Source of the DNA: a virus | Direction: 5' to 3' (one strand) | Virus record (IMG/VR): IMGVR_UViG_3300033145_000688 | Coordinates: 1 to 25,721 of that record | DNA length: 25,721 nt | In this document: piece by piece, positions 2,431 to 25,232 of the stretch | Position numbering within the stretch: position 1 is the stretch's first letter | Layout: every line of letters begins with the position of its first letter | Translations under genes and position numbers: made by a program | Notes under the pieces: model-generated | The model's database searches: none | Told to the model about the DNA's origin: nothing | What the model saw: the letters and a program-made list of their open reading frames with translations, nothing else

Positions 2431-4881
2431 ATGACACAATCAGGGCAAATAATGACAACAAACATAGAAATACCATATCATTTCACACCGAGACCGTATC
2501 AAGTGAAGCTGTTTAACTGTATTGATGATGGATATAAGAGAGCGGTTGCCATCTTTCACAGACGTTGCTTGGGTGGAGATAGCCATGTAATTATGAGTAA
2601 TGGGTCATGGAAGCTTTTAAAAAATGTCAATAAGGGAGACAGGATATTATCGTGGGATGGTGGAAACTTTGTCATTGATAAGGTAAAAGATATTTGGAAA
2701 ACAGGCGTAAAACAGGGATATTCGGTAAAAGTAAAAGGTTGTAAGAATTTTGAGGCAAGCAAAGACCATAAATATTTAACATCAAGGCAAGGGTATTCGA
2801 TGAACTGGGAAACTCTTAAAAGCATTAAGCATCCCAGGAGATTATATACATATGATAAATTAGCTTGCGGTACTATACATAATCCTGAATTAGCTGAATT
2901 AATAGGATATTTAATAACAGATGGAAGTGTTAATAAAGATCAATCGCCTAAATTTACTAATATAAATATGGAAATGGTTGAACGTGTTGCCCTTCTTACT
3001 AAAAGAATATTTGGGTATGTAGGGAAATACCATAAAAAAGGAAATGGATGGGATTTAATATTATCGAATGGCACAAGAGGCGGGGGAAAAACGCCAAATA
3101 AAGTGAAAGAATTTTTTCGAGAAAATGATGCTCTTGAGAAAAAGAGTAATAGAAGAGTTCCTAAAATCCTTTGGGATATGGATGAGGAAAGTTTATGGGC
3201 TTTCTTTGGGGCCGTTATAAGCGGTGATGGAAATATTTATTGCCAAAAGAATGGACGTATGATAGATGGTAAAAATGTTGATAGAGCGGTAGATATTAAA
3301 ATAAGTGTAGGCGAAAGTATAAACTTGATGTGGGATTATTATTGGCTATTAAGAAAACTTGGTATATTTGCGGGAGATGCCAAAAAGGACAATAGGGTAT
3401 TTCACAATAATCATATTGTGCGAATATGGACAAGGGAATATATTAATAAATTACTGTTAAATATAAGAACTATTGGTAAAGAAGATAAACGCAAGGAAGC
3501 AATATTATTAACATCTAAATATGAACCACGAGTCAAGTATCAAGGAAATACTTGCCTTTATTCTATTACATCAAAAGAAGATAAAGATATTGATACTTAT
3601 GATTTAGAGACAGAAGCAAATGGGTGTTTTATTGCTGATGGATATGTTGTTCATAATAGCGGGAAGGATAAAACCTGTATCAACATCATGGTCTCACAGT
3701 TATTGCAGCGTGTAGGCATTTATTATTATTTCTTTCCCACGTATTCACAAGGACGCAAGATACTCTGGGACGGCATGGATAAGGATGGATTTCCTTTTTT
3801 GGGACATATCCCCGAAGGTATAAGAGCCTTGACAAACAATCAAGAAATGAAGATCAAGTTTAAAAACGGCTCACTGTTTCAGGTTGTCGGGACGGATGAC
3901 ATTGACAGGGTTGTTGGGACAAACCCGGTAGGCAATATCTTTTCGGAGTATGCTTTGCAGAACCCGATAGCATACGATTACATAAGACCGATTATAAAAG
4001 AAAATAATGGATGGGCTATTTTCCCCTATACCCCTCGAGGACGCAATCATGGTTATACTCTTTACAATATGGCTTTACATAACCCTGATTGGTTTGCTGA
4101 GCTTTTAACAATTAAAGATACTGGAGTTCTCACCGAAGCTGACATGGATAAAGAGCGGGCTGAGGGTATGAGCGAAGAGCTTATTCAACAGGAATACTAT
4201 TGCAGCTTTTCGGCTTCACAGACAATGCAGTTAATACCCTTTGAGGTAGTCAATAGAGGCGTTGAATGCCACTATGATGCTCATGTGTACCGAGATGCCC
4301 CTATTGTCGTTGGAGTTGATGTAGCCCGGTTTGGAGATGATAAGAGCGCTATCTGTGTGAGACAGGGGTTACACGTCCATGAAATACATAAATTTCAGGA
4401 TTTAGATACGATGGAATTGGCTTCTCAGGTGGCACAGGTACAGGATGCCTGGCAACCCGATCAGACTTTCATCGATATTGTAGGACTCGGCGCTGGAGTT
4501 TACGACCGTCTTAATCAGCTTGGGCGCAATGTGTGTGCTGTGAATGCCGGGATGAAACCGGATAACCCTATAAAATACTTCAATAAACGGATTGAGATGT
4601 GGGACAAATGTAATCAGTGGCTTGCAGAAGGCGGATCCATCCCGAATGACAAGGAACTGATTGCTGACCTGACAAATCCTACATATTCGTTTAACAGCCG
4701 GGAACAGATGGTGTTGGAGCGCAAAGAGAAGATGAAAGAACGAGGAGTAGGCTCACCTGACACGGGTGAGAGCGTTGTTTATACGTTTGCCGAGAATGTT
4801 CAGCTTGATTTATCGAATGAAGATTACGATTACTATCACCGAGAGCGCTATATAGGCTCGACATCGGTCACGGGGTACTGA
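2431..4881 (+). CDS. terL: Terminase large subunit (TerL) interrupted by an intein
   Basis: This is the packaging motor ATPase and headful nuclease. The 816-residue precursor contains a 364-residue intein (residues 46-409), and the mature protein would be 452 aa, normal for P22/T7-type terminases. The insertion falls in the Walker A loop: the N-extein ends FHRR and the C-extein begins SGKDKT, so splicing restores HRRSGKDKT. After it come a Walker B-like NIFSEYAL (precursor 502-509), the coupling motif FPYTPRGRNHGY (530-541), and the RNase H-like nuclease with acidic residues in VVGVDVARFGDDKS (626-638), FIDIVGLGAG (680-689) and SPDTGES (775-781). The start could be ATG 2431 or ATG 2452; the latter has AGGG upstream, and neither SD is strong. 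Packaging should depend on splicing, because the unspliced protein lacks an intact nucleotide-binding loop. Confidence 0.95.
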   Translation: MTQSGQIMTTNIEIPYHFTPRPYQVKLFNCIDDGYKRAVAIFHRRCLGGDSHVIMSNGSWKLLKNVNKGDRILSWDGGNFVIDKVKDIWKTGVKQGYSVKVKGCKNFEASKDHKYLTSRQGYSMNWETLKSIKHPRRLYTYDKLACGTIHNPELAELIGYLITDGSVNKDQSPKFTNINMEMVERVALLTKRIFGYVGKYHKKGNGWDLILSNGTRGGGKTPNKVKEFFRENDALEKKSNRRVPKILWDMDEESLWAFFGAVISGDGNIYCQKNGRMIDGKNVDRAVDIKISVGESINLMWDYYWLLRKLGIFAGDAKKDNRVFHNNHIVRIWTREYINKLLLNIRTIGKEDKRKEAILLTSKYEPRVKYQGNTCLYSITSKEDKDIDTYDLETEANGCFIADGYVVHNSGKDKTCINIMVSQLLQRVGIYYYFFPTYSQGRKILWDGMDKDGFPFLGHIPEGIRALTNNQEMKIKFKNGSLFQVVGTDDIDRVVGTNPVGNIFSEYALQNPIAYDYIRPIIKENNGWAIFPYTPRGRNHGYTLYNMALHNPDWFAELLTIKDTGVLTEADMDKERAEGMSEELIQQEYYCSFSASQTMQLIPFEVVNRGVECHYDAHVYRDAPIVVGVDVARFGDDKSAICVRQGLHVHEIHKFQDLDTMELASQVAQVQDAWQPDQTFIDIVGLGAGVYDRLNQLGRNVCAVNAGMKPDNPIKYFNKRIEMWDKCNQWLAEGGSIPNDKELIADLTNPTYSFNSREQMVLERKEKMKERGVGSPDTGESVVYTFAENVQLDLSNEDYDYYHRERYIGSTSVTGY
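2566..3657 (+). other. Intein with LAGLIDADG homing endonuclease, inside TerL
   Basis: An in-frame protein intron encoding 364 residues. It begins with the nucleophile Cys (CLGGDSHVIMSNGSW, block A) and has block B NFEASKDHKYLTSRQG at precursor residues 106-121. It ends with block F (DTYDLETEANGCFIADGY) and the C-terminal VVHN, followed by a Ser nucleophile in the extein. All splicing residues are present (Cys1, the block B His, penultimate His, terminal Asn, Ser+1), so it should splice. Between the splicing blocks lie two dodecapeptide motifs, LAELIGYLITDG (154-165) and LWAFFGAVISGDG (255-267), each keeping an acidic catalytic residue. This marks a two-motif endonuclease that cuts intein-less terL alleles and promotes spread. 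The intein is AT-richer than its host gene, a sign of separate origin. Confidence 0.93.
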
Positions 4882-5289: not shown

Positions 5290-5391
5290 ATGACAAACAT
5301 AACCTTAGTAATACTACCTACTTTATTATTCGTATATGGTGTAATAGTGGGATATATGATAGCAAAAGCAAAATACAATAAAAACGAATAA
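5290..5391 (+). CDS. 33-aa single-pass membrane peptide
   Basis: The strong SD GAGAGGAG (5276-5283) sits six bases before ATG 5290. The 33-residue product is one hydrophobic helix (residues about 4-25, ITLVILPTLLFVYGVIVGYM) followed by a short basic tail (AKAKYNKNE). It should insert in the inner membrane. Its stop codon TAA is followed in the same frame by a 57-codon open stretch (next entry), so the two could once have been one reading frame. Function unknown. Confidence 0.5.
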   Translation: MTNITLVILPTLLFVYGVIVGYMIAKAKYNKNE

Positions 5392-5565
5392 ATTAGCGAA
5401 GCTGATAGACGTCTCCAGAGTTATGAGGAAGCAATATCAAGATTCTATGCGTCGGATGGAACGCCAACAATCTTTAACCCTTTTGAGGCTGACAACGCTG
5501 ATAATGATTTCAATACTGAGAATGCCAAATACAAAGCAATCGGGAGAAGGATAAATCTTAAATGA
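5392..5565 (+). pseudogene. Start-less fragment resembling the major capsid protein C-terminus
   Basis: A 57-codon stretch is open from just after the TAA at 5389 to TGA 5563-5565, with no ATG, GTG or TTG in frame. Its translation looks coding and ends with DNDFNTENAKYKAIGR (nucleotides 5500-5547). The major capsid protein of this window has DNDFDTDNAKFKATGR near its C-terminus (16048-16095). Twelve of 16 residues and 38 of 48 bases match, and most base differences are at third positions. After that block the sequences diverge. The upstream part (LQSYEEAISRFYASDGTPTIFNPF) does not resemble the capsid protein. I read this as a decayed capsid-gene piece or chimera left by recombination. A rare ATT start or read-through of the preceding TAA are alternatives. 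Its TGA overlaps the portal start codon. Confidence 0.55.
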
Positions 5566-7655
5566 ATACCAATACTAAGAATAATAACACCGTTCAGCAG
5601 TTGTTAAGCTGGATGAACGAGGTTAACATCGCCGAGTCGCTTGACGAACAAGTCCTCTACAAGATAGGTGATAGAGTTATACGAGAACTTACCATTGACA
5701 TAGCGTCACGGGCTGACTGGCAGATAAGGTATGAGAAAGCCTTGAAACTTGCTAACCTTGTGGCTATAGAGAAAGACTTTCCGTGGCCGAAAGCAGCAAA
5801 CGTCATGTATCCTATTATAACAGAGGCAGGTATCAACTTTGCATCGAGAGCCTACCCTAATATCGTTCAAGATACTAATGTTGTTAAATGCAGAGTAACG
5901 GGGCCTGATAGAGAAGGTGAAAAAGCTGAGAGAGCTGAACGAATATCAAAGCACATGAGCTATCAGTGTTTAGAACAGATAGAAGACTGGGAAGGAGAGA
6001 CTGACCAGTTACTGACAGTATTGCCGATAGTCGGCACAGCTTTCCGTAAGACTTTCCATAATGCTGAAGAAAGACGGCACGAGTCAATGTATATCAGTGC
6101 GGCGGATTGTGTTGTTAATTACAATGCTAAATCACTTAAAGTTGCCCGAAGAATAACCCACCTATACGAATTATACCCGAATGAAATAGTTGAGAACATA
6201 AGAAGCGGTATTTTTATTACCTTTGACTATGAGTCCTCAGAGACACAGAAAGACGGACAGGGCGGAGAATATGATGAAGACGCTCCCCACGAGTTCTATG
6301 AACAACATCGGTGGTGGGACTTGGATGAGGACGGTTACCAAGAACCTTACATAATAACGGTTCACAAAGCAACCGAGAAGGTTGTCAGGATAGTCGCCAG
6401 ATATGATAAGGACGGCATTCTGTTGACTCAGGACGGTTCACAGATAGCAAAGATCATACCTGTTGAATACTTTACGCTCTATAAGTTCCTTAATTCTCTT
6501 GATAGTAAGATATACGGTTGGGGCTATGGTATTTTGTTAGGGGCGATGAACGAGACTATTAACTCTACTATTAATCAACTACTTGATGCGGGAACAAAAC
6601 AGAATACAGGCGGTGGCTTTAAAGATGCTGACCTCAAATTAAAAGATAGAAATATGGTTGACGGTGTATCAATGATAAAACCGGGTGAATACAAAGATGT
6701 GACGTTTACCGGCGATGATATACGTAAGAAATTATACGAGGTGGATAATGTAACTCCTTCTCCTGTCTTATATAACTTACTTGGTTTTCTTACAGAAGCG
6801 ACAAAACGGTTAGGTTCTTCTGTTGATGTTCTTTCGGGTGAACAGATAGGAGCAAACGCATCTCCAACGACAACCTTAGCATTAATTGAGCAGGGTTTAA
6901 AAGTATTTTCAGCAATATATAAGCGTATTTATAGGTCATTAAAACAAGAATTTAAGAAGATATTCAGACTTAATAAACTGTATCTTGACGACCAGTCCTA
7001 TTATATGTATCAGGATGAGCATTTCGTTATCCCGCGTGAAGATTATAATGATAAGGATATGGACGTTGTCCCGGTAAGCGATCCGAAGAATGTTGCTGAT
7101 ATCCAGAGGATAATGAAAGCCGAGTCATTGCTTAATTTAACTGGGAGAGGTTTAACTGATAATGAAATATACCGAAGATACTGTCAGGCACTTAATGTGT
7201 CAGAGATAGATAAGATTGTTCCGGGAGAAGATGAAGAGCAGGCGCCGAGCATGGAAGAGCAGGTTGAAGCAAAGAAGATGGAGCTTGAGGAACGCAAGAT
7301 AGCTATTGATGAAAGAAAGCTCGGAGTAGAAATAGTCAAATCAAAGTTTGAAGTGATAAAGATACAACAGGAAGCCGCAAAGTTAAAAGCCGATGCTGTG
7401 AGACTTTATGCTGATGCTGAGGCGAAAGAAGTAGGATCGCAATTTGAGGAGTATAAGGCACACGCTGATGAGGCTCTTGGACAGGTTGATGATCTTACTA
7501 AGATGATTAAACGGCAGGGAGAGACGATAGATAAGATGACCGATGAGATTTCAGGGAAAGTAAATGTACCAGCAGCAGAGACGAACGTACCAATAGAAAG
7601 AACAAATGTACCTGTTAAGGAAACAGAGAGAAGTCAACCGAATGAAAAGACGTGA
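5562..7655 (+). CDS. Portal protein, P22-like
   Basis: The portal is a ring at one head vertex through which DNA is packaged and ejected; it docks TerL, then the adaptors. The 697-aa length and features fit the P22 portal family (P22 portal is about 725 aa). They include WQIRYEKALKLANLVAIEKDFPWPKAANVMYPIITEAGINFASRAYP (residues about 56-100), the stem/clip region with YGWGYGILLGAMNETINSTINQLLDAG in the middle, and GANASPTTTLALIEQGLKVFSAIYKRI before a long C-terminal coiled coil (about 560-655, rich in Glu/Lys/Ala). That coiled coil corresponds to the barrel of P22-type portals. The last 30 or so residues carry three NVP repeats (NVPAAET, NVPIERT, NVPVKET). The start overlaps the stop of the preceding fragment, with GGGAGAAGGA upstream. 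Confidence 0.92.
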   Translation: MNTNTKNNNTVQQLLSWMNEVNIAESLDEQVLYKIGDRVIRELTIDIASRADWQIRYEKALKLANLVAIEKDFPWPKAANVMYPIITEAGINFASRAYPNIVQDTNVVKCRVTGPDREGEKAERAERISKHMSYQCLEQIEDWEGETDQLLTVLPIVGTAFRKTFHNAEERRHESMYISAADCVVNYNAKSLKVARRITHLYELYPNEIVENIRSGIFITFDYESSETQKDGQGGEYDEDAPHEFYEQHRWWDLDEDGYQEPYIITVHKATEKVVRIVARYDKDGILLTQDGSQIAKIIPVEYFTLYKFLNSLDSKIYGWGYGILLGAMNETINSTINQLLDAGTKQNTGGGFKDADLKLKDRNMVDGVSMIKPGEYKDVTFTGDDIRKKLYEVDNVTPSPVLYNLLGFLTEATKRLGSSVDVLSGEQIGANASPTTTLALIEQGLKVFSAIYKRIYRSLKQEFKKIFRLNKLYLDDQSYYMYQDEHFVIPREDYNDKDMDVVPVSDPKNVADIQRIMKAESLLNLTGRGLTDNEIYRRYCQALNVSEIDKIVPGEDEEQAPSMEEQVEAKKMELEERKIAIDERKLGVEIVKSKFEVIKIQQEAAKLKADAVRLYADAEAKEVGSQFEEYKAHADEALGQVDDLTKMIKRQGETIDKMTDEISGKVNVPAAETNVPIERTNVPVKETERSQPNEKT

Positions 7656-7800
7656 ATCTCTTAAATATATATCAGCTATGTTTTCAGGGTTATTTGTTGC
7701 AGTAATGACGAAGAGTAAAATACCTCAGAATAAGATACCTCGTGGATTTAAACCAGTTAAAGCTGGTAGTGTGGCAAATGCTGATGATTTTTACCATTAA
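7642..7800 (+). CDS. 52-aa protein with Tat-like N-terminus
   Basis: The gene overlaps the 3' end of the portal gene in another frame and starts at ATG 7642 after AGAGAGAAG; the frame is open further upstream (ATG 7606) but without a better SD. The product begins MKRRESLKYISAMFSGLFVAVMT, which reads as a twin-arginine signal: RR, then a hydrophobic segment. Only about 30 residues remain after it (KIPRGFKPVKAGSVANADDFYH). Either it is a membrane-tethered peptide, or the RR start is fortuitous. No known phage family recognised. Confidence 0.55.
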   Translation: MKRRESLKYISAMFSGLFVAVMTKSKIPQNKIPRGFKPVKAGSVANADDFYH

Positions 7801-7839
7801 AGGTTTTCTTTTATCTATGAATGAGAGAGGAGTAGAGAA

Positions 7840-8007
7840 ATGGGCAAAAATAATCTAAAAGTTAAATTAACTCAAAAAGAAATATATTGTACTACAGCAT
7901 TAATAAAAAGAGCAACCTCAAAAGAAATGGACTATAATGAATTGAGTTACCTTGTGAGTGCTTGTGAGAAAATGAGAAAAGTTTATAATGATTCTATAGA
8001 GGAGTAG
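7840..8007 (+). CDS. Small 55-aa unknown protein
   Basis: ATG 7840 follows the SD GAGAGGAG and the spacer TAGAGAA, a leader almost repeated before the next gene (AGAGGAGTAGAGAA). The product is helical and charged (MGKNNLKVKLTQKEIYCTTA...ACEKMRKVYNDSIEE), probably one or two helices. It ends four bases before the next start. No domain recognised. The duplicated leader suggests this small gene and its neighbour arose by tandem capture of an SD cassette. Confidence 0.55.
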   Translation: MGKNNLKVKLTQKEIYCTTALIKRATSKEMDYNELSYLVSACEKMRKVYNDSIEE

Positions 8008-8011
8008 AGAA

Positions 8012-8416
8012 ATGAAAGAGAGATATTTGTGTGCATTGGAGCTTACTAAAATATTGAAAATTGTGTATGAAAATTGTCAGAGTTTTGAAGAGACAATTAC
8101 AGAACAGTTCGATAATGCCGTAAAACTCATAACGGATAATGCTGTAGATTGTGCTCCAGCGGAAGAGATTGACTCTTCTGTTTTAAAAAAATTGGCAATG
8201 GAAGCACATCCTCCTATCTTTGATAAACCCAAAGAAGAATTAATAAGTCTTAAATATTGTAAAGAGTGTATAGGGAAAACTATTGAGACTATGCACGTCA
8301 ACACAGGAGGGTTATCTATCCATTTTAAAGATGGGAATTATATTCGGTTTGACATAATAAATCCTGATACTATTGCTTTTACGTATCCTCCTAACAAAGA
8401 AAAGAATAATGACTAA
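8012..8416 (+). CDS. Unknown 134-aa protein
   Basis: A soluble acidic protein with an N-terminal helical part (residues 1-45), a linker, and a C-terminal beta-rich part (GGLSIHFKDGNYIRFDIINPDTIAFTYPP). A CKEC pair (about residues 83-86) is present without partners. It has a clear SD (GAGGAG) and its end overlaps the glycosyltransferase start. It does not match a family I know. AT-rich codon use sets it apart from the structural genes and suggests accessory cargo. Confidence 0.65.
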   Translation: MKERYLCALELTKILKIVYENCQSFEETITEQFDNAVKLITDNAVDCAPAEEIDSSVLKKLAMEAHPPIFDKPKEELISLKYCKECIGKTIETMHVNTGGLSIHFKDGNYIRFDIINPDTIAFTYPPNKEKNND

Positions 8417-9653
8417 CCCTACAATATCGGTTGCAATCATAGCCTACAACGAGGCTGAGAGGCTTATGGATACCCTCAAGAGTGTTCAGGGATTAGCCGA
8501 CCAGATAGTTATCGGCATCGACACCCGGACAGATGATGAGACACGGCAAATAGCCCGTACATTCGAGGCTGAGGTCTTTGAGTTAGAATGGAAGGATGAC
8601 TTTGCCGGTGCCCGTAATCAGTGTATTGACCGATGCACAGGCGATTGGATATTTATGCTTGATGGGCATGAGGTGCTTGCTATGAGTTGGCAAACACCAA
8701 AAGAAGGTGTGAAAATTGTATCAATGATTTTTGGAAATGGTGAAACTGAAAATTATTATTGTAATAACCCGTGTGAATTTATTAAGCCTATACTATCAAA
8801 AGCTCCTGACAACATTGACCTTTATTCAATCCAAGTTGATATGCAACCTTTTATGGGTGAATTACCACTTTACTCTTTCATGCAATCTAAGATATTCAGA
8901 AACAAACCTGAGATACGTTACACAAATAAGGTTCATGCTTTCATTGGCCGTGAGAGTGTTCCGGCAGATCGCAGAAGCCATATTCCTGATGTTGCCTGTA
9001 AACACCTGCCATCAGTAAAGAAAACCGAGGTTGCGGAAAAACGACATAAGAATATTAACATGCCTTCATTTAAAGAACAGATCCCAGAAATTAAAGATGT
9101 TTATGGCCTGCTTGAGTTGAGAATGCTGTATCAGTATGCGAATGCATTGTTCTCAATTGGTGATAAAGATAAAGCAGTAGAGATGCTTCAAAAACACCGT
9201 AAAGCCTGTTTATCGAATACCAGCCACAATGAACCAATTAATCACGGTGAGTATTTCTCAGTGCTGTTGAGTCTTGCCGATTATTACCGGCAAAATGGAA
9301 TGAACAACTTTTCTTATCTTTACGCTATGCAGGCACATACTTTGATGACCGACAGGGCTGAACCGCTTGTTGCGCTCGGAATGTGTTGCATGAACACAGG
9401 AGATCATGAGAGGGCAAAAACGCATTTTAAGCAAGCGATAGACTTAGACGTACCAGAATGTCCTATCGGCATGGTAAGGGTCGCAGATTACACCTGGCGC
9501 CCTCTGATGGGGATGGCAGTGTGTGAAGCCAACCTTGAGAATATTGGAGAGGCTGCGAGATGTGCTGAGGCTGTCTTGAAATACGATCCAGATAATAAGA
9601 CAGCGAAAGAGATTGTAAGTAAACATGATGAGAGAGAGAAGGTAACAGTATGA
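8409..9653 (+). CDS. Family 2 glycosyltransferase with C-terminal TPR repeats
   Basis: The N-terminal ~220 residues are a GT-A fold: TISVAIIAYNEAERLMDTLKSV (nucleotide-sugar binding start), DQIVIGIDTRTDDETRQIA, FAGARNQCIDRCTGDWIFMLDGHEVL. The usual metal-binding D-x-D/LDADE position here reads LDGHE, so metal binding may be altered. From about residue 235 to the end come helix-turn-helix repeats of tetratricopeptide type (YQYANALFSIGDKDKAVEML; EPLVALGMCCMNTGDHERAKTHFKQAIDLD; EAARCAEAVLKYDPDN). I chose ATG 8409 (414 aa); the frame is open to an earlier ATG at 8373, but that lies inside the neighbour. Related enzymes of WaaE/Sunset type add sugars to polysaccharide or protein. Placed between portal and capsid genes, it may glycosylate a virion protein or alter the host surface. 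Acceptor unknown. Confidence 0.85.
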   Translation: MTNPTISVAIIAYNEAERLMDTLKSVQGLADQIVIGIDTRTDDETRQIARTFEAEVFELEWKDDFAGARNQCIDRCTGDWIFMLDGHEVLAMSWQTPKEGVKIVSMIFGNGETENYYCNNPCEFIKPILSKAPDNIDLYSIQVDMQPFMGELPLYSFMQSKIFRNKPEIRYTNKVHAFIGRESVPADRRSHIPDVACKHLPSVKKTEVAEKRHKNINMPSFKEQIPEIKDVYGLLELRMLYQYANALFSIGDKDKAVEMLQKHRKACLSNTSHNEPINHGEYFSVLLSLADYYRQNGMNNFSYLYAMQAHTLMTDRAEPLVALGMCCMNTGDHERAKTHFKQAIDLDVPECPIGMVRVADYTWRPLMGMAVCEANLENIGEAARCAEAVLKYDPDNKTAKEIVSKHDEREKVTV

Positions 9654-9898
9654 ATTGCCCTATTTGTGATGTGGCTGTGGTGATGAGTAGTTTTGATAGT
9701 TTTGATATTGATTTTTTACGATGTGAGCGGTGCGGGCTTATATGTTCTGAAAAATGTTTACCTGGTATAAAAGAATCAAATAATTTAGAAGATAAAGCTT
9801 ATTCTTTTTTTACATGGCTTGAATTTGTTGAGTTTCAAGAGAAAATAAAGATATATTTGTATGCTAAAAAGAATAATAAAGAGAAGGATGATGCCTAA
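9650..9898 (+). CDS. Small zinc-ribbon protein
   Basis: Eighty-two residues starting in an ATGA overlap with the glycosyltransferase stop. The N-terminus carries CPIC and, about 23 residues later, CERC (MNCPICDVAV...LRCERCGLICSEKC). These are two CxxC pairs typical of a single zinc ribbon, with a third Cys pair following. The rest is helical (FFTWLEFVEFQEKIKIYLYAKK). Such small ribbons often bind nucleic acid or a partner protein. The specific role is unknown. Confidence 0.7.
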   Translation: MNCPICDVAVVMSSFDSFDIDFLRCERCGLICSEKCLPGIKESNNLEDKAYSFFTWLEFVEFQEKIKIYLYAKKNNKEKDDA

Positions 9899-9899
9899 G

Positions 9900-10014
9900 A
9901 TGATAAAATATGTAATGGATAACGAACAATGAATTTACGCTTAACGAGCAGGTGCAGGGAATACAAAAGATGCTGAGAGAATTATTTCCAGATAAGAAAG
10001 AGATGGAGGTATAG
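9900..10014 (+). pseudogene. Small gene split by a one-base frameshift
   Basis: ATG 9900 opens ten codons (MIKYVMDNEQ) and meets TGA at 9930-9932. Skipping the T of that TGA continues in the +1 frame as EFTLNEQVQGIQKMLREL...EMEV to TAG 10012-10014, so the joined product would be about 37 residues with a good amphipathic helix. The second part has no start codon of its own. Either a base was inserted and the gene is broken, or ribosomes shift +1 at CAA-TGA as in bacterial prfB. No internal SD like that of prfB is seen, which favours a broken gene or a sequencing error. Confidence 0.4.
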
Positions 10015-10020
10015 TTAGCT

Positions 10021-10392
10021 ATGTTTGAATTATTAAAAGGAGCAGAGAAAAAATTATCACGGTTTTCTAATAATTTTTGTATTATAAAAGAAGCATACAT
10101 TCTTCAAGAGGGATATAATGAAATATTAGAATGTATAAAGGGTAATGAGATTTTATTAATAAAAAGCCAAAGTGATTTAAAAGAGAAAATAGAAGATAAA
10201 AGTATCAAGAAAATATTTGTTAGCAATGAAATATTAGAAAAGTACGAATATTTAGCTTTTCTTATGGTTGGAATAGAAGGTCTGAAGAGAGACTATGATC
10301 CTGAAGGTGCAAATAAAGTTGAGGATGTATTGTTTGAGAAAATAAGTAAAGTGAGTTTGTATAATGAGCGAGCGAATAATGAATATGTCTGA
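10021..10392 (+). CDS. Unknown 123-aa helical protein
   Basis: GGAGGT at 10005-10010 lies ten bases before ATG 10021. The protein is Lys/Glu-rich and mostly helical, with alternating short strands (FCIIKEAYILQEGYNEILECI, EILLIKSQSDL, SIKKIFVSNEILEKYEYLAFLMVGIEGL). No membrane segment and no recognised motif. AT-rich accessory gene whose stop overlaps the next start. Function unknown. Confidence 0.6.
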   Translation: MFELLKGAEKKLSRFSNNFCIIKEAYILQEGYNEILECIKGNEILLIKSQSDLKEKIEDKSIKKIFVSNEILEKYEYLAFLMVGIEGLKRDYDPEGANKVEDVLFEKISKVSLYNERANNEYV

Positions 10393-10609
10393 AAGAATAA
10401 TAACCTTAGATGACATCGAGTCCTGGATGGGACTACCAATGACAGAGGAGTTCTTTGAACGTGTGAATGCACTCAAGACAGCAAAAGAGCGATCTATAGG
10501 GAACGGATCATGTATGAACACAGACTCGGCTGAGAACACTCTGGCGCTTACGGCTAAGGCTGTAGGGTTTTGTGAGGGGATTAAAGACGCACTGAGTGTG
10601 TTTGAATGA
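10385..10609 (+). CDS. Unknown 74-aa protein
   Basis: Start chosen at ATG 10385 (MSERIITLDDIESWMGLP...). An in-frame ATG at 10364 gives seven extra residues, MSERIMN, which are a near copy of the next seven, MSERIIT; this local duplication makes the true start ambiguous. The product is acidic and helical with an ENTLALTAKAVGFCEGIKDALSVFE C-terminus. Such 'GFCEGI..AL' ends occur in short phage proteins that count subunits or repeat items, but I know no function. The beginning overlaps the stop of the previous gene. Confidence 0.6.
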   Translation: MSERIITLDDIESWMGLPMTEEFFERVNALKTAKERSIGNGSCMNTDSAENTLALTAKAVGFCEGIKDALSVFE

Positions 10610-10623
10610 GAGAGGGAATTAAG

Positions 10624-10857
10624 ATGAGCCACAAGATAATCACAAGTACTCAGAATAATAAGTATAGAGAGGGTTGGAATAGGATATTTGGCAAGAGAAA
10701 ACAAGTAAAGGAGATAAGACCTATAGATAGACCAATATTTAATAATTTTGTTATGTCAGAAGGACAGAGAATAGGTTTAGAAACTTTTGAGGAAATAGAG
10801 AGGAGCGAAAACAATGAGAGGTTTACAGAAGATAAAGAAGTTCACATGCCGAATTAG
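10624..10857 (+). CDS. Unknown 77-aa basic protein
   Basis: ATG 10624 is preferred because GAGAGGG lies about seven bases upstream; an in-frame ATG at 10606 is inside that SD region. The product is polar with a basic middle (REGWNRIFGKRKQVKEIRPIDRPIF) and acidic end (EEIERSENNERFTEDKEVHMPN). No recognised family. The 3' end overlaps the following larger gene by 44 bases in another frame. Confidence 0.55.
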   Translation: MSHKIITSTQNNKYREGWNRIFGKRKQVKEIRPIDRPIFNNFVMSEGQRIGLETFEEIERSENNERFTEDKEVHMPN

Positions 10858-11626
10858 GATGATAGGCAAGAAGCACTATCACCTATTTAAAAAAATTATT
10901 AAAAGATGTTTTCGATCAACAGTAAGAAACTATTTATTTTACAAAGAACAGTGGTATGTTACCGAAGAGTTGTTGAATAAACGTTACAAGACTACATATA
11001 TAGTTTTTAAGGGTATTATATATTCAGTTATTAGGACAATAATTTACAAACCGGTGCAAGCTATATATGTTTATATTAAACAAAGGATTATCAAAAGACA
11101 AGTAGTTAAACTTTATTACAGCATTAAGTTTGTTAAAAACCCGAAGTTTAAGCGTTATATGCATCTGGCTATTAGGAATTGTCTAATTGTTGATCTTAAT
11201 ACAAAGACTGATAAAAGGAATTTACTATTATATGAAAACTGGACACTAAAAAAACAGAAAATAGATACTTGTTATAATACACGTACAGATTTACATAGAT
11301 TAATAGAAGAAGCAAATAAATGGGTCAAGGAGTACAAACCACAGACGGTATTTATCAACAAAGAGAATATGTTATTTGTTATAAAGCAAGGTTCAAGATT
11401 TCCAAGTATTACTGAAAAACAGAATATACCACCTATTAATCACGATAATGTAGCGGTACTCTATGATTATATATATAATAAATTTTACAATGATGTCAAT
11501 GAGTCAGGGTTTTACGAGGGAATAATGTTTACACCAGATATAGCAGTGTTTAACGTATATGATAACGAAGGCAATATTAATGAAAACCTAACTTTCACCG
11601 AATTACCCGTAAGAGGCACCGTATGA
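10814..11626 (+). CDS. Unknown 270-aa protein with strongly basic N-terminal half
   Basis: The largest unrecognised gene of the accessory block. SD GAGAGGAG at about 10797-10804 precedes ATG 10814. Residues about 1-120 are very rich in Lys, Arg, Tyr and Ile (IKKFTCRIRMIGKKHYHLFKKIIKR...YIKQRIIKRQVVKLYYSIKF); they resemble amphipathic helices, without a clean uncharged membrane segment. Residues about 120-270 form a more ordinary globular domain (LIVDLNTKTDKRNLLLYENW, FINKENMLFVIKQGSRFPS, GIMFTPDIAVFNVYDNEG). A nucleic-acid or membrane-surface role would fit the basic half, but this is inference from composition. The stop overlaps the next ATG (ATGA). Confidence 0.65.
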   Translation: MRGLQKIKKFTCRIRMIGKKHYHLFKKIIKRCFRSTVRNYLFYKEQWYVTEELLNKRYKTTYIVFKGIIYSVIRTIIYKPVQAIYVYIKQRIIKRQVVKLYYSIKFVKNPKFKRYMHLAIRNCLIVDLNTKTDKRNLLLYENWTLKKQKIDTCYNTRTDLHRLIEEANKWVKEYKPQTVFINKENMLFVIKQGSRFPSITEKQNIPPINHDNVAVLYDYIYNKFYNDVNESGFYEGIMFTPDIAVFNVYDNEGNINENLTFTELPVRGTV

Positions 11627-11820
11627 CAAGAATAGAAAAACCAGACAATGCTACCAAGCTCAAGAGAATAGTTGGTGATTTTTCCCGTAAGGTTCACGAA
11701 TGGATAAGGGATAAAAGCACGGGAAAGATAGGAGTTGAGGTAAACATGAGAAGTGGTGGAATCGGAGAGCATGAACTACATACTATGGAGAGAATAAAGG
11801 ATGGAAAAGAGAGAAGCTAA
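11623..11820 (+). CDS. Unknown 65-aa basic protein
   Basis: Coupled to the gene before it by an ATGA overlap. The product is basic and polar (MTRIEKPDNATKLKRIVGDFSRKVHEWIRDKSTGKIGVEVNMRSGG...), with a helix followed by a short strand. It contains GIGEHELHTMERI, in which HELHT resembles a zinc-protease HExxH pattern, but the protein is far too short for an enzyme and I do not claim activity. Its stop overlaps the next gene by about 20 bases. Confidence 0.55.
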   Translation: MTRIEKPDNATKLKRIVGDFSRKVHEWIRDKSTGKIGVEVNMRSGGIGEHELHTMERIKDGKERS

Positions 11821-12385
11821 TATTGAAAAACTAAAAGATAAACTAAGGATAATAATAAAAGATTATGCCCATACAGGATATTCTAATGCTTCGATGGACG
11901 ATGCCTTCAAAACTGCTCTCAAGAAGTCTGAAGTGTTCTATGATGAGTTGATACTATTATTTGCAGAAGCGGAGTTACGAAATATAGAAGAAAATGACTG
12001 TAAGTTCCATGTGATAATAAGTCTGATAAAAGAAGATATATTGGAGAGTAACCCGATTGTAATAGATAAAACTGTAATGGAAGATAAAGAAAAGGAAACT
12101 TCTTATACTTTAAAATTTACACTTTTTAATAATAGGGAATTAGGACTCACTGGACTTACAAAAAATAAGTTATATAAAGAACTATTAAGTATGATTAAAC
12201 AAGGTATTACATATATTCATGAATATATACCGAGAGAAGATATTAAATTGATTGAATTTGATTTACCGGAAAGTTATGTTGAAGATTCGGTGGCAGGTAA
12301 TGTTGCTATTGCTGTTGGTGATAGAAACTATACTTGGGAAATTAACCAAAATATGACTATGAGAATAATTCAAAAACGATGTTAA
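11801..12385 (+). CDS. Unknown 194-aa protein
   Basis: Starts inside the preceding gene (GGATGGAA context, AAAGGATG upstream). The N-terminal half is helical (EKLKDKLRIIIKDYAHTGYSN, AFKTALKKSEVFYDELILLFAEAEL) and the C-terminal part mixed alpha/beta (FTLFNNRELGLTGLTKNKLYKELLSMI, VAIAVGDRNYTWEINQNMTMRII). No family recognised. In the same frame after its TAA comes a 31-codon piece resembling the end of a homing endonuclease (next entry). The AT-rich accessory block ends here. Confidence 0.6.
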   Translation: MEKREANIEKLKDKLRIIIKDYAHTGYSNASMDDAFKTALKKSEVFYDELILLFAEAELRNIEENDCKFHVIISLIKEDILESNPIVIDKTVMEDKEKETSYTLKFTLFNNRELGLTGLTKNKLYKELLSMIKQGITYIHEYIPREDIKLIEFDLPESYVEDSVAGNVAIAVGDRNYTWEINQNMTMRIIQKRC

Positions 12386-12481
12386 AACGGCGAAACACAA
12401 ATATTAATTTCACGAGACTTTAATGTTAGTAGCAGTCAAGTAAGTTATATCGCAAGAAGAAATAATTGGGTACATATATAA
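12386..12481 (+). pseudogene. Remnant of a homing-endonuclease DNA-binding tail
   Basis: An open stretch with no start codon reads ...ETQILISRDFNVSSSQVSYIARR... and ends NNWVHI-stop. This is the helix-turn-helix plus WkHi ending seen at the C-terminus of many phage HNH homing endonucleases (the pattern resembles 'xISxxFNVSxSxISxIxRGxxWKHI'). Nothing of the nuclease part is present upstream; the preceding codons belong to the 194-aa gene in the same frame, past its TAA. I infer a leftover of an inserted endonuclease gene. The assignment rests on about 25 residues. Confidence 0.45.
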
Positions 12482-12537
12482 GATATTTTTAATAATTCGG
12501 CAACGGAAAACCCTCCGGATATTCCTGAGTTAGTTTA

Positions 12538-12582
12538 AAGCCCGAATGAACGGCAAATATGCTGTTTATCTGGGCTTTTTTT
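12538..12582 (+). terminator. Intrinsic terminator before the capsid morphogenesis unit
   Basis: AAGCCC (12538-12543) pairs with GGGCTT (12572-12577), followed by a T-rich run. A nested stem, ACGGCA with TGCTGT, extends the hairpin inside the loop. The stem and U-tract fit a rho-independent terminator on the + strand. It separates the accessory block from the co-chaperonin gene. Confidence 0.7.
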
Positions 12583-15198: not shown

Positions 15199-15240
15199 TT
15201 CTAATGGACTATAAAAATATAATGTAAAAGGAGTATGACA

Positions 15241-16149
15241 ATGGCTATCGGAACAGGCAATTTTGCCAAACTTTTATGGCCGGGACTTAATGAGATTTAT
15301 GGCATTAAGTACAACGAGCATAAAAAGGAATATCCTGAAATCTTTGATTTCTACAAATCAACAAAAGCGTTTGAGGAAGATATGAGTGCAACGGGGTTCA
15401 GTATGGCTCCGATAATCAGACAGGGCGCAGGTGTTACTTATGAAGACCAGTCTCAAGGTTTTATAAACCGCTATACAGCCGTTAAATATGGGAAAGGGTT
15501 TATTATCACTATTGAGATGTACGAAGATAACCAGTATAAACTTCCTATGATTAACAGGGCAACAGCGCTCGCGTTCTCACTGAATCAGACAAAAGAGACA
15601 GTTGCGGCTAATATCCTTAACCGCGGATTCAATTCAGATTATGTTTATGGTGACGGTGTTGAGCTTTTGGCTGATGATCATCCTAACGTATCGGGCGGAA
15701 CGTGGTCGAACGAACTCACAACCGCTTCAGACCTTAATCAGGACGCTCTCGAACAGGCTTGTATTGATATTGCCAAGTTTGAGAATGATAAAGGTCTTAA
15801 AGTTAACCTTAAACCTGTTAAACTTATCATTCCATCCAACTTGATGTTTGATGCGGAAAAACTCTTAATGTCGCCTCTTGATCCTGAGTCAGCGAATAAC
15901 GCGGTTAACGCTATTCGCTCGATGGGTAAAATACCTCAAGGGGCTTTTGTTAATCATTATCTGACCGATGAAGACGCGTGGTTTATCAAAACCGACTGTC
16001 CGAGTGGTTTAAAACACTTTGAGAGAAAAGCTGATACGTTTAAAGAGGATAATGATTTCGACACCGATAACGCTAAATTCAAGGCAACCGGCAGATATTC
16101 ATTCGGTTGTTCTGACGCAATGGCTATCTTCGGCAGCCCGGGTTCTTAA
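15241..16149 (+). CDS. Major capsid protein (HK97-like fold)
   Basis: The 302-aa shell subunit. Start ATG 15241 is chosen over 15235 because AAGGAG (15228-15233) leaves seven bases to it and only one to the other. Family-like features are an N-terminal arm (FAKLLWPGLNEIYGIKYNEHKKEYPEIF), the extended region with MINRATALAFSLNQTKETVAANIL, the loop ELLADDHPNVSGGTW, the A-domain strand KPVKLIIPSNLMFDAEKLL, and the C-terminal motif DNDFDTDNAKFKATGRYSFG. That last pattern is common near the end of gpT-like and related HK97-fold capsid proteins. The stop codon lies inside the stem of a strong terminator. A fragment upstream of the portal repeats the C-terminal motif. Confidence 0.9.
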   Translation: MAIGTGNFAKLLWPGLNEIYGIKYNEHKKEYPEIFDFYKSTKAFEEDMSATGFSMAPIIRQGAGVTYEDQSQGFINRYTAVKYGKGFIITIEMYEDNQYKLPMINRATALAFSLNQTKETVAANILNRGFNSDYVYGDGVELLADDHPNVSGGTWSNELTTASDLNQDALEQACIDIAKFENDKGLKVNLKPVKLIIPSNLMFDAEKLLMSPLDPESANNAVNAIRSMGKIPQGAFVNHYLTDEDAWFIKTDCPSGLKHFERKADTFKEDNDFDTDNAKFKATGRYSFGCSDAMAIFGSPGS

Positions 16150-17736: not shown

Positions 17737-17808
17737 AAGGGCATTGCCGACAAAATAAAAGATATATTTGACAAATTGAACGATATATTTGAAAGATTAT
17801 CTGAGTGA
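17737..17808 (+). pseudogene. Start-less helical fragment before the HNH remnant
   Basis: Open in frame with no ATG, GTG or TTG near its start, this 23-codon stretch reads KGIADKIKDIFDKLNDIFER..., an amphipathic heptad-like helix, and stops at TGA 17806-17808 overlapping the GTG of the HNH piece. The DNA contains the direct repeat GATATATTTGA twice, spaced by ten bases, which accounts for the repeated KDIFDKLNDIFE helix. It may be the 3' end of a gene cut by the endonuclease insertion. The evidence is weak. Confidence 0.25.
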
Positions 17809-17999
17809 CGTGGGATAATTATGGTGAGTGGCACATAGACCATATTATTCCCAAAAGTATTTTTAATTACACAGATGTAATACACATTGATTTTAAGAGG
17901 TGTTGGGCTTTAGATAATTTAAGACCCCTTTGGGCAATGGAAAACTTAAAAAAACATACAAAACTTGAAAAAGCTTTTCAGCCAAGCATGGCGATATAA
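17805..17999 (+). pseudogene. HNH homing endonuclease, N-terminally truncated
   Basis: The 64 codons carry the core of an HNH nuclease: TWDNYGEWHIDHIIPKSIF (the first His and Asp-His of the motif at residues 10-13), then FKRCWALDNLRPLWAMENLKK with the conserved Asn and final N-x-x-K. Full homing endonucleases of this group have more than 100 residues ahead of this core. Here the frame begins at a GTG right at the core with no real SD. The N-terminal part is missing, so it is a remnant or a very reduced nuclease. No intron is evident around it, so this was probably a free-standing invader. Confidence 0.75.
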
Positions 18000-24947: not shown

Positions 24948-25232
24948 CTAAGCCGAAGCTAAGCTCTGCATCCCCAGTCTTAAAATATTAATTGAGGCAT
25001 TATAATCACGGTTGATAGAATTATGACAATAAGGACATTTAAAAATACGGTCGGACAATTTCAATTTATGCCTTTTGCCACATTTAGAACATGTTTGGCT
25101 GGTGTAAGAAGGATTGACTTTTATCACTTTCCTTGCAGCCTCTTCCGCTTTCACAGAAAGCAGATCTGTGAGTTTATGAATAAAATCACGTCTTTCGTTT
25201 GCTATTTTTTCGTGAATATAGGCAACAACATA
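24948..25232 (-). pseudogene. tnpB: tnpB C-terminal remnant with internal deletion
   Basis: The minus-strand frame reads YVVAYIHEKIANERRDFIHKLTDLLS and then abruptly VKAEEAARKVIKVNPSYTSQTCSKCGKRHKLKL, ending CPYCHNSINRDYNASINILRL. The first segment corresponds to the helical part before the second RuvC-like motif of TnpB; the rest is the C-terminal zinc finger (TCSKCG...CPYC) and the final catalytic NRDYNAS. At the join, about 60 residues normally containing the middle catalytic Glu region are missing, and everything N-terminal is gone. There is no start codon for the longer frame. TnpB is an RNA-guided nuclease of IS605 elements; this piece cannot be active. Its stop is next to the right-end hairpin. 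Confidence 0.8.

Follow-up and report, generated by a model that had tools for sequence, protein, structure and literature searches.

In an environmental tailed phage, a start-less reading frame of 57 codons (positions 5392–5565 of the window, the whole 25,721-nucleotide stretch of DNA analysed here) is found just 5′ of the portal gene, and this frame includes a block of 16 codons resembling part of the major capsid protein (MCP) encoded in the same genome. We consider the frame to be, more likely than not, a 5′-truncated chimeric relic ORF that acquired its capsid piece by recombination and that survives as the leader of the portal gene. The features on which the argument draws are the following.

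2431–4881, plus strand: terL, split in its Walker A region by an intein (family matches, comparison with relatives)
About 4882/4885–5391, plus strand: three small ORFs in an AT-rich cassette (35% GC) that separates terL from the start-less frame
5290–5391, plus strand: 33-aa ORF with one hydrophobic stretch, noted by eye (weak family matches only)
5392–5565, plus strand: start-less 57-codon frame, the candidate relic ORF (codon usage typical of the phage's own genes)
5392–5499, plus strand: upstream 36 codons of that frame, not capsid-like, with no relative found
5500–5547, plus strand: 16-codon block DNDFNTENAKYKAIGR, like MCP residues 272–287 (DNA, protein and profile comparisons)
5540–5565, plus strand: end of the frame, with GGGAGAAGG and a TGA overlapping the ATG of the portal gene at 5562 (sequence reading)
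5562–7655, plus strand: portal (head-to-tail connector) gene, 697 aa (alignment with relatives)
15235–16149, plus strand: MCP gene, 304 aa, HK97 fold (family matches and structural model)
16048–16095, plus strand: MCP stretch matching the block, located around the turn of a long predicted beta-hairpin, from the end of its first strand into the start of its second

The capsid-like block and its limits

A sequence-only reading had described a start-less frame matching the MCP at 12 of 16 residues and 38 of 48 bases, with differences mostly at third codon positions, and recomputation returned exactly these values. The block occupies codons 37–52 of the frame, and its differences from MCP positions 16048–16095 number one, two and seven at the first, second and third codon positions, respectively. 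At the DNA level, the match had an E-value of 2e-6 in a BLAST comparison with a 541-base query. When the window was compared with itself, no other match scored as high (42.5 bits, E = 1e-4), and the best of 20 Markov shuffles reached 34.0 bits. A capsid C-terminal profile of 100 non-redundant rows, derived from 135 related capsid proteins gathered through portal and capsid alignments, was then compared with 107,650 six-frame ORFs from 290 loci and the window, two capsid pieces at contig ends being set aside. Frame 5392–5565 was the top match outside capsid genes, with a score of 19.1 bits and a single-sequence p of 5e-8, followed by the runner-up real non-capsid frame at 15.7 bits; the best shuffled and reversed ORFs reached 13.7 and 9.5 bits. 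The hairpin motif of this capsid group, DNDF.T.NAK.....R, is present in the block with its nearly invariant positions kept, and all 16 residues are attested at their positions in natural capsids. The pattern had been ascribed to the C-terminal region of HK97-type capsids, which is indeed the region that the block matches in the capsids of this phage group.

Homology would thus be carried by a single block of 16–18 codons scoring far above the shuffled and reversed controls. That this likeness arose by chance or convergence, without common descent, appears very improbable given the margin over those controls, the rank of the block as the top DNA self-match of the window and the occurrence of each of its residues in capsids, even though the block is short, acidic and N-rich, was chosen after the whole window had been read and is not extended by any match on either side.

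In the predicted MCP structure, residues 272–287 fall within beta-hairpin strands 259–274 and 279–292. The model resembles HK97 (Foldseek E = 1.6e-10), its moderate quality (pLDDT 72) sufficing only to place the block and to recognise the HK97 fold. Sixteen hairpin codons cannot make a shell subunit, and the genome still has its intact MCP gene, at a distance of 10.5 kb. Similarity to capsids is confined to codons 35/37–52 (16–18 codons), with sharp edges: the capsid profile detected none, in frame, in the 36 codons upstream or the 5 codons downstream of the block, and beyond the 48 matching bases the DNA match was no better than with shuffles on either side. The frame ends 5 codons past the block, whereas capsids run on for 17 codons. 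No Pfam or PHROG capsid family matched frame 5392–5565, its profile match covers residues 35–52 of 57 and not a whole protein, and the frame does not hold a full-length HK97 fold with A and P domains and E-loop. The earlier description of a capsid C-terminal block is therefore retained for 16–18 codons and abandoned for the 57-codon frame as a whole, most of which is not capsid-like.

These limits bear on the proposal that the whole frame descends from an additional capsid gene that has since diverged, or from an old duplication of the phage's own, its flanks having eroded. Among 257 capsids compared over the block, the phage's own MCP comes second by bases and 24th by residues, and the highest residue identity, 14 of 16, is reached by some capsids, among them that of L242; loci from L172 onwards were fetched by motif pattern and are motif-enriched, so that these ranks and the L242 identity are descriptive only. 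Judging from these comparisons, the donor of the block may have been either the phage's own capsid gene or that of a relative. Upstream of the block, an out-of-frame peptide, QDSMRRMER, lies in the order expected for the capsid sequence PDGMKYYER (p = 0.001–0.014, against shuffles or random segments), but this match is post hoc, and codon usage is poor in the frame where it falls. Moreover, conservation within the capsid family is also high in the segment next to the block, yet the reading frame has no match to that segment. We regard descent of the whole frame from a capsid gene as decidedly unlikely.

Coding character of frame 5392–5565

The frame translates as ISEADRRLQSYEEAISRFYASDGTPTIFNPFEADNADNDFNTENAKYKAIGRRINLK, followed by its stop codon. 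As the sequence-only reading had pointed out, TAA 5389–5391 abuts it in the same frame; this is the stop codon of the 33-aa ORF 5290–5391. The whole frame was read and contains no ATG, GTG or TTG, and inspection of the sequence 5′ of ATT 5392 revealed no Shine–Dalgarno sequence or ribosome-binding site. Its codon usage is gene-like: the same level was reached by 0.3–0.5% of off-frame gene segments, with p = 0.0017 against random stop-free frames and p = 0.004 when the 36 upstream codons were taken alone, and the neighbouring small ORFs matched less well. Under the base composition, 57 stop-free codons have a chance of 0.012. From this gene-like codon usage we infer translation of the frame at least in the recent past; since most of it is nevertheless not capsid-like, a chimeric or truncated ORF containing a capsid piece describes it better. 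The GC content is lower in the cassette (35%) than in the frame (40%) or the portal gene (41%), a step that is consistent with a boundary at 5391/5392. At its other end, TGA 5563–5565 overlaps the portal ATG at 5562, and GGGAGAAGG is, by its position, probably the ribosome-binding site of the portal gene.

Gene-like codons and third-position differences would also be compatible with ongoing translation. A small protein might be made by starting at ATT 5392, by read-through of TAA 5389 or by coupling to neighbouring genes, its hairpin mimicking the shell protein. The length of the stop-free run, the mostly third-position mismatches with the MCP and a codon usage that is gene-like in the non-capsid half as well are in keeping with such a product, as are the TGA/ATG overlap with the portal, of the type found in co-translated genes, and the hydrophobic 33-aa ORF upstream in the same frame, to which read-through would fuse it. 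However, initiation at ATT and read-through of TAA are rare events; the frame lacks an ATG, GTG or TTG start and a ribosome-binding site before 5392, and no conserved homologue was found in IMG/VR, annotated phages, GTDB genomes or the junctions of relatives. We therefore hold a translated product to be unlikely, and most likely no protein is made from frame 5392–5565. Proof of expression would make the frame a capsid mimic, and a far more interesting one. Host defences that sense capsid protein have been reported (PMC9712102, PMC12578639), and it is conceivable, but exceedingly improbable, that a hairpin mimic translated from the ATT start or by TAA read-through tunes shell assembly or serves as a decoy for such defences.

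The terL–portal junction in relatives

Relatives of the portal and capsid genes are widespread among environmental phages. In 147 loci, one of which (L001) is the window's own copy, it was possible to locate both the end of terL (..TGY/GGY) and the portal, and across these the gap between the two genes ranges from an overlap to about 1.2 kb. Inserts in the gaps of relatives include homing endonucleases and small ORFs. In L014, an HNH endonuclease gene comes after an intein-bearing terL, and L012 retains only a 29-residue remnant of an endonuclease of the L014 type. The terL intein of the window is a 364-aa LAGLIDADG intein (2566–3657, CLGGDS...VVHN preceding SGKDK). No match to a group I or group II intron or other RNA element was found in Rfam for the window at E-values up to 0.5.

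Several other features of the window were recorded. At positions 17805–17999, an HNH homing endonuclease is reduced to a C-terminal remnant, with 59% identity to the terL–portal endonuclease of L014 and 64% identity to an endonuclease downstream of the L019 capsid gene. On the minus strand, 68 codons at 24948–25154 resemble, by eye, the C-terminal zinc finger of TnpB/OrfB transposon proteins. Between the portal and GroES, about 5 kb (7656–12545) carry small ORFs and a glycosyltransferase-like gene (8414–9653, by eye); this stretch is absent from annotated relatives, in which portal and GroES are nearly adjacent. A 29-base direct repeat (20–48 and 1301–1329, 97% identity) lies upstream of the terminase genes.

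The fragment was absent from every terL–portal junction of relatives examined; among the 147 placed loci, the window alone has it. This fits the lineage-specific scar that had been proposed from the sequence, and an intact gene unrelated to capsid genes, sought in this position in relatives, was not found. Searches of IMG/VR, annotated phages, GTDB genomes and PDB sequences yielded no homologue of the whole frame. The exact-protein DNA pattern DNDFN..KA had no match in viral contigs, and a looser version of it retrieved related capsid loci. Capsid motifs of comparable strength outside capsid genes were found neither in the 290 loci nor in 50 whole records; in the latter, matches to the frame all fell inside long capsid frames, one of them at a contig end. 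Two further origins were considered and rejected: the terL tails of relatives end in ..TGY/GGY and bear no resemblance to the frame, which disfavours an old terL C-terminus, and the portal N-termini and gap ORFs of relatives are unlike it, which disfavours an old portal N-terminus.

Small terL–portal ORFs ending in a copy of the terL C-terminal tail were seen at L037 9607–9924 and L112 2340–2630; the copies (..DDTGRSAAGGY and ..VLTERSSSTGY, each followed by a stop codon) stand beside an intact terL whose own tail is of this kind. Since the same junction holds small ORFs with a terL-tail copy in L037/L038 and in L112, these sequences suggest that pieces of virion genes reach the terL–portal gap more than once.

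In the chimeric relic that we favour, recombination would have joined a short piece of an MCP gene, the part encoding the beta-hairpin, to an unrelated coding sequence in the terL–portal gap, which appears to be a recurrent site of insertion in these phages. The AT-rich small-ORF cassette would then have come to lie directly upstream, with loss of the beginning of the original ORF. The end of the frame would have been retained because the probable portal ribosome-binding site and the overlap with the portal start codon lie there. No intermediate or empty junction at high DNA identity was found among the relatives, and for this reason the order of these events is one that we infer.

Comparison with known systems

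A chimeric relic is the most economical reading, and it calls for ordinary phage mosaicism. The frame would represent a small and sharply bounded case of structural-gene shuffling at the terL–portal junction, where insertions are frequent across a large group of environmental phages. Gene remnants arise by mosaic (illegitimate) recombination between phages, and like such remnants the frame is short, lineage-specific, start-less and located at a gene boundary; unlike them, it repeats a portion of a gene of which its own genome retains an intact copy. In the capsids of the Phage_capsid_4/Mu gpT-like group (PF25209, PF10124; phrog_371), the conserved near-C-terminal hairpin corresponds to codons 37–52 of the frame, but compared with these proteins the frame has 16–18 of about 300 residues, no start and no capsid-like flanks. 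Free-standing HNH homing endonucleases in phage genomes have been described for Cluster J mycobacteriophages (PMC3706429). Like morons and HNH inserts, the frame sits where related phages carry HNH genes, their remnants or small ORFs; unlike them, it has no endonuclease domain, no start of its own and no conserved family, and it includes a piece of a structural gene.
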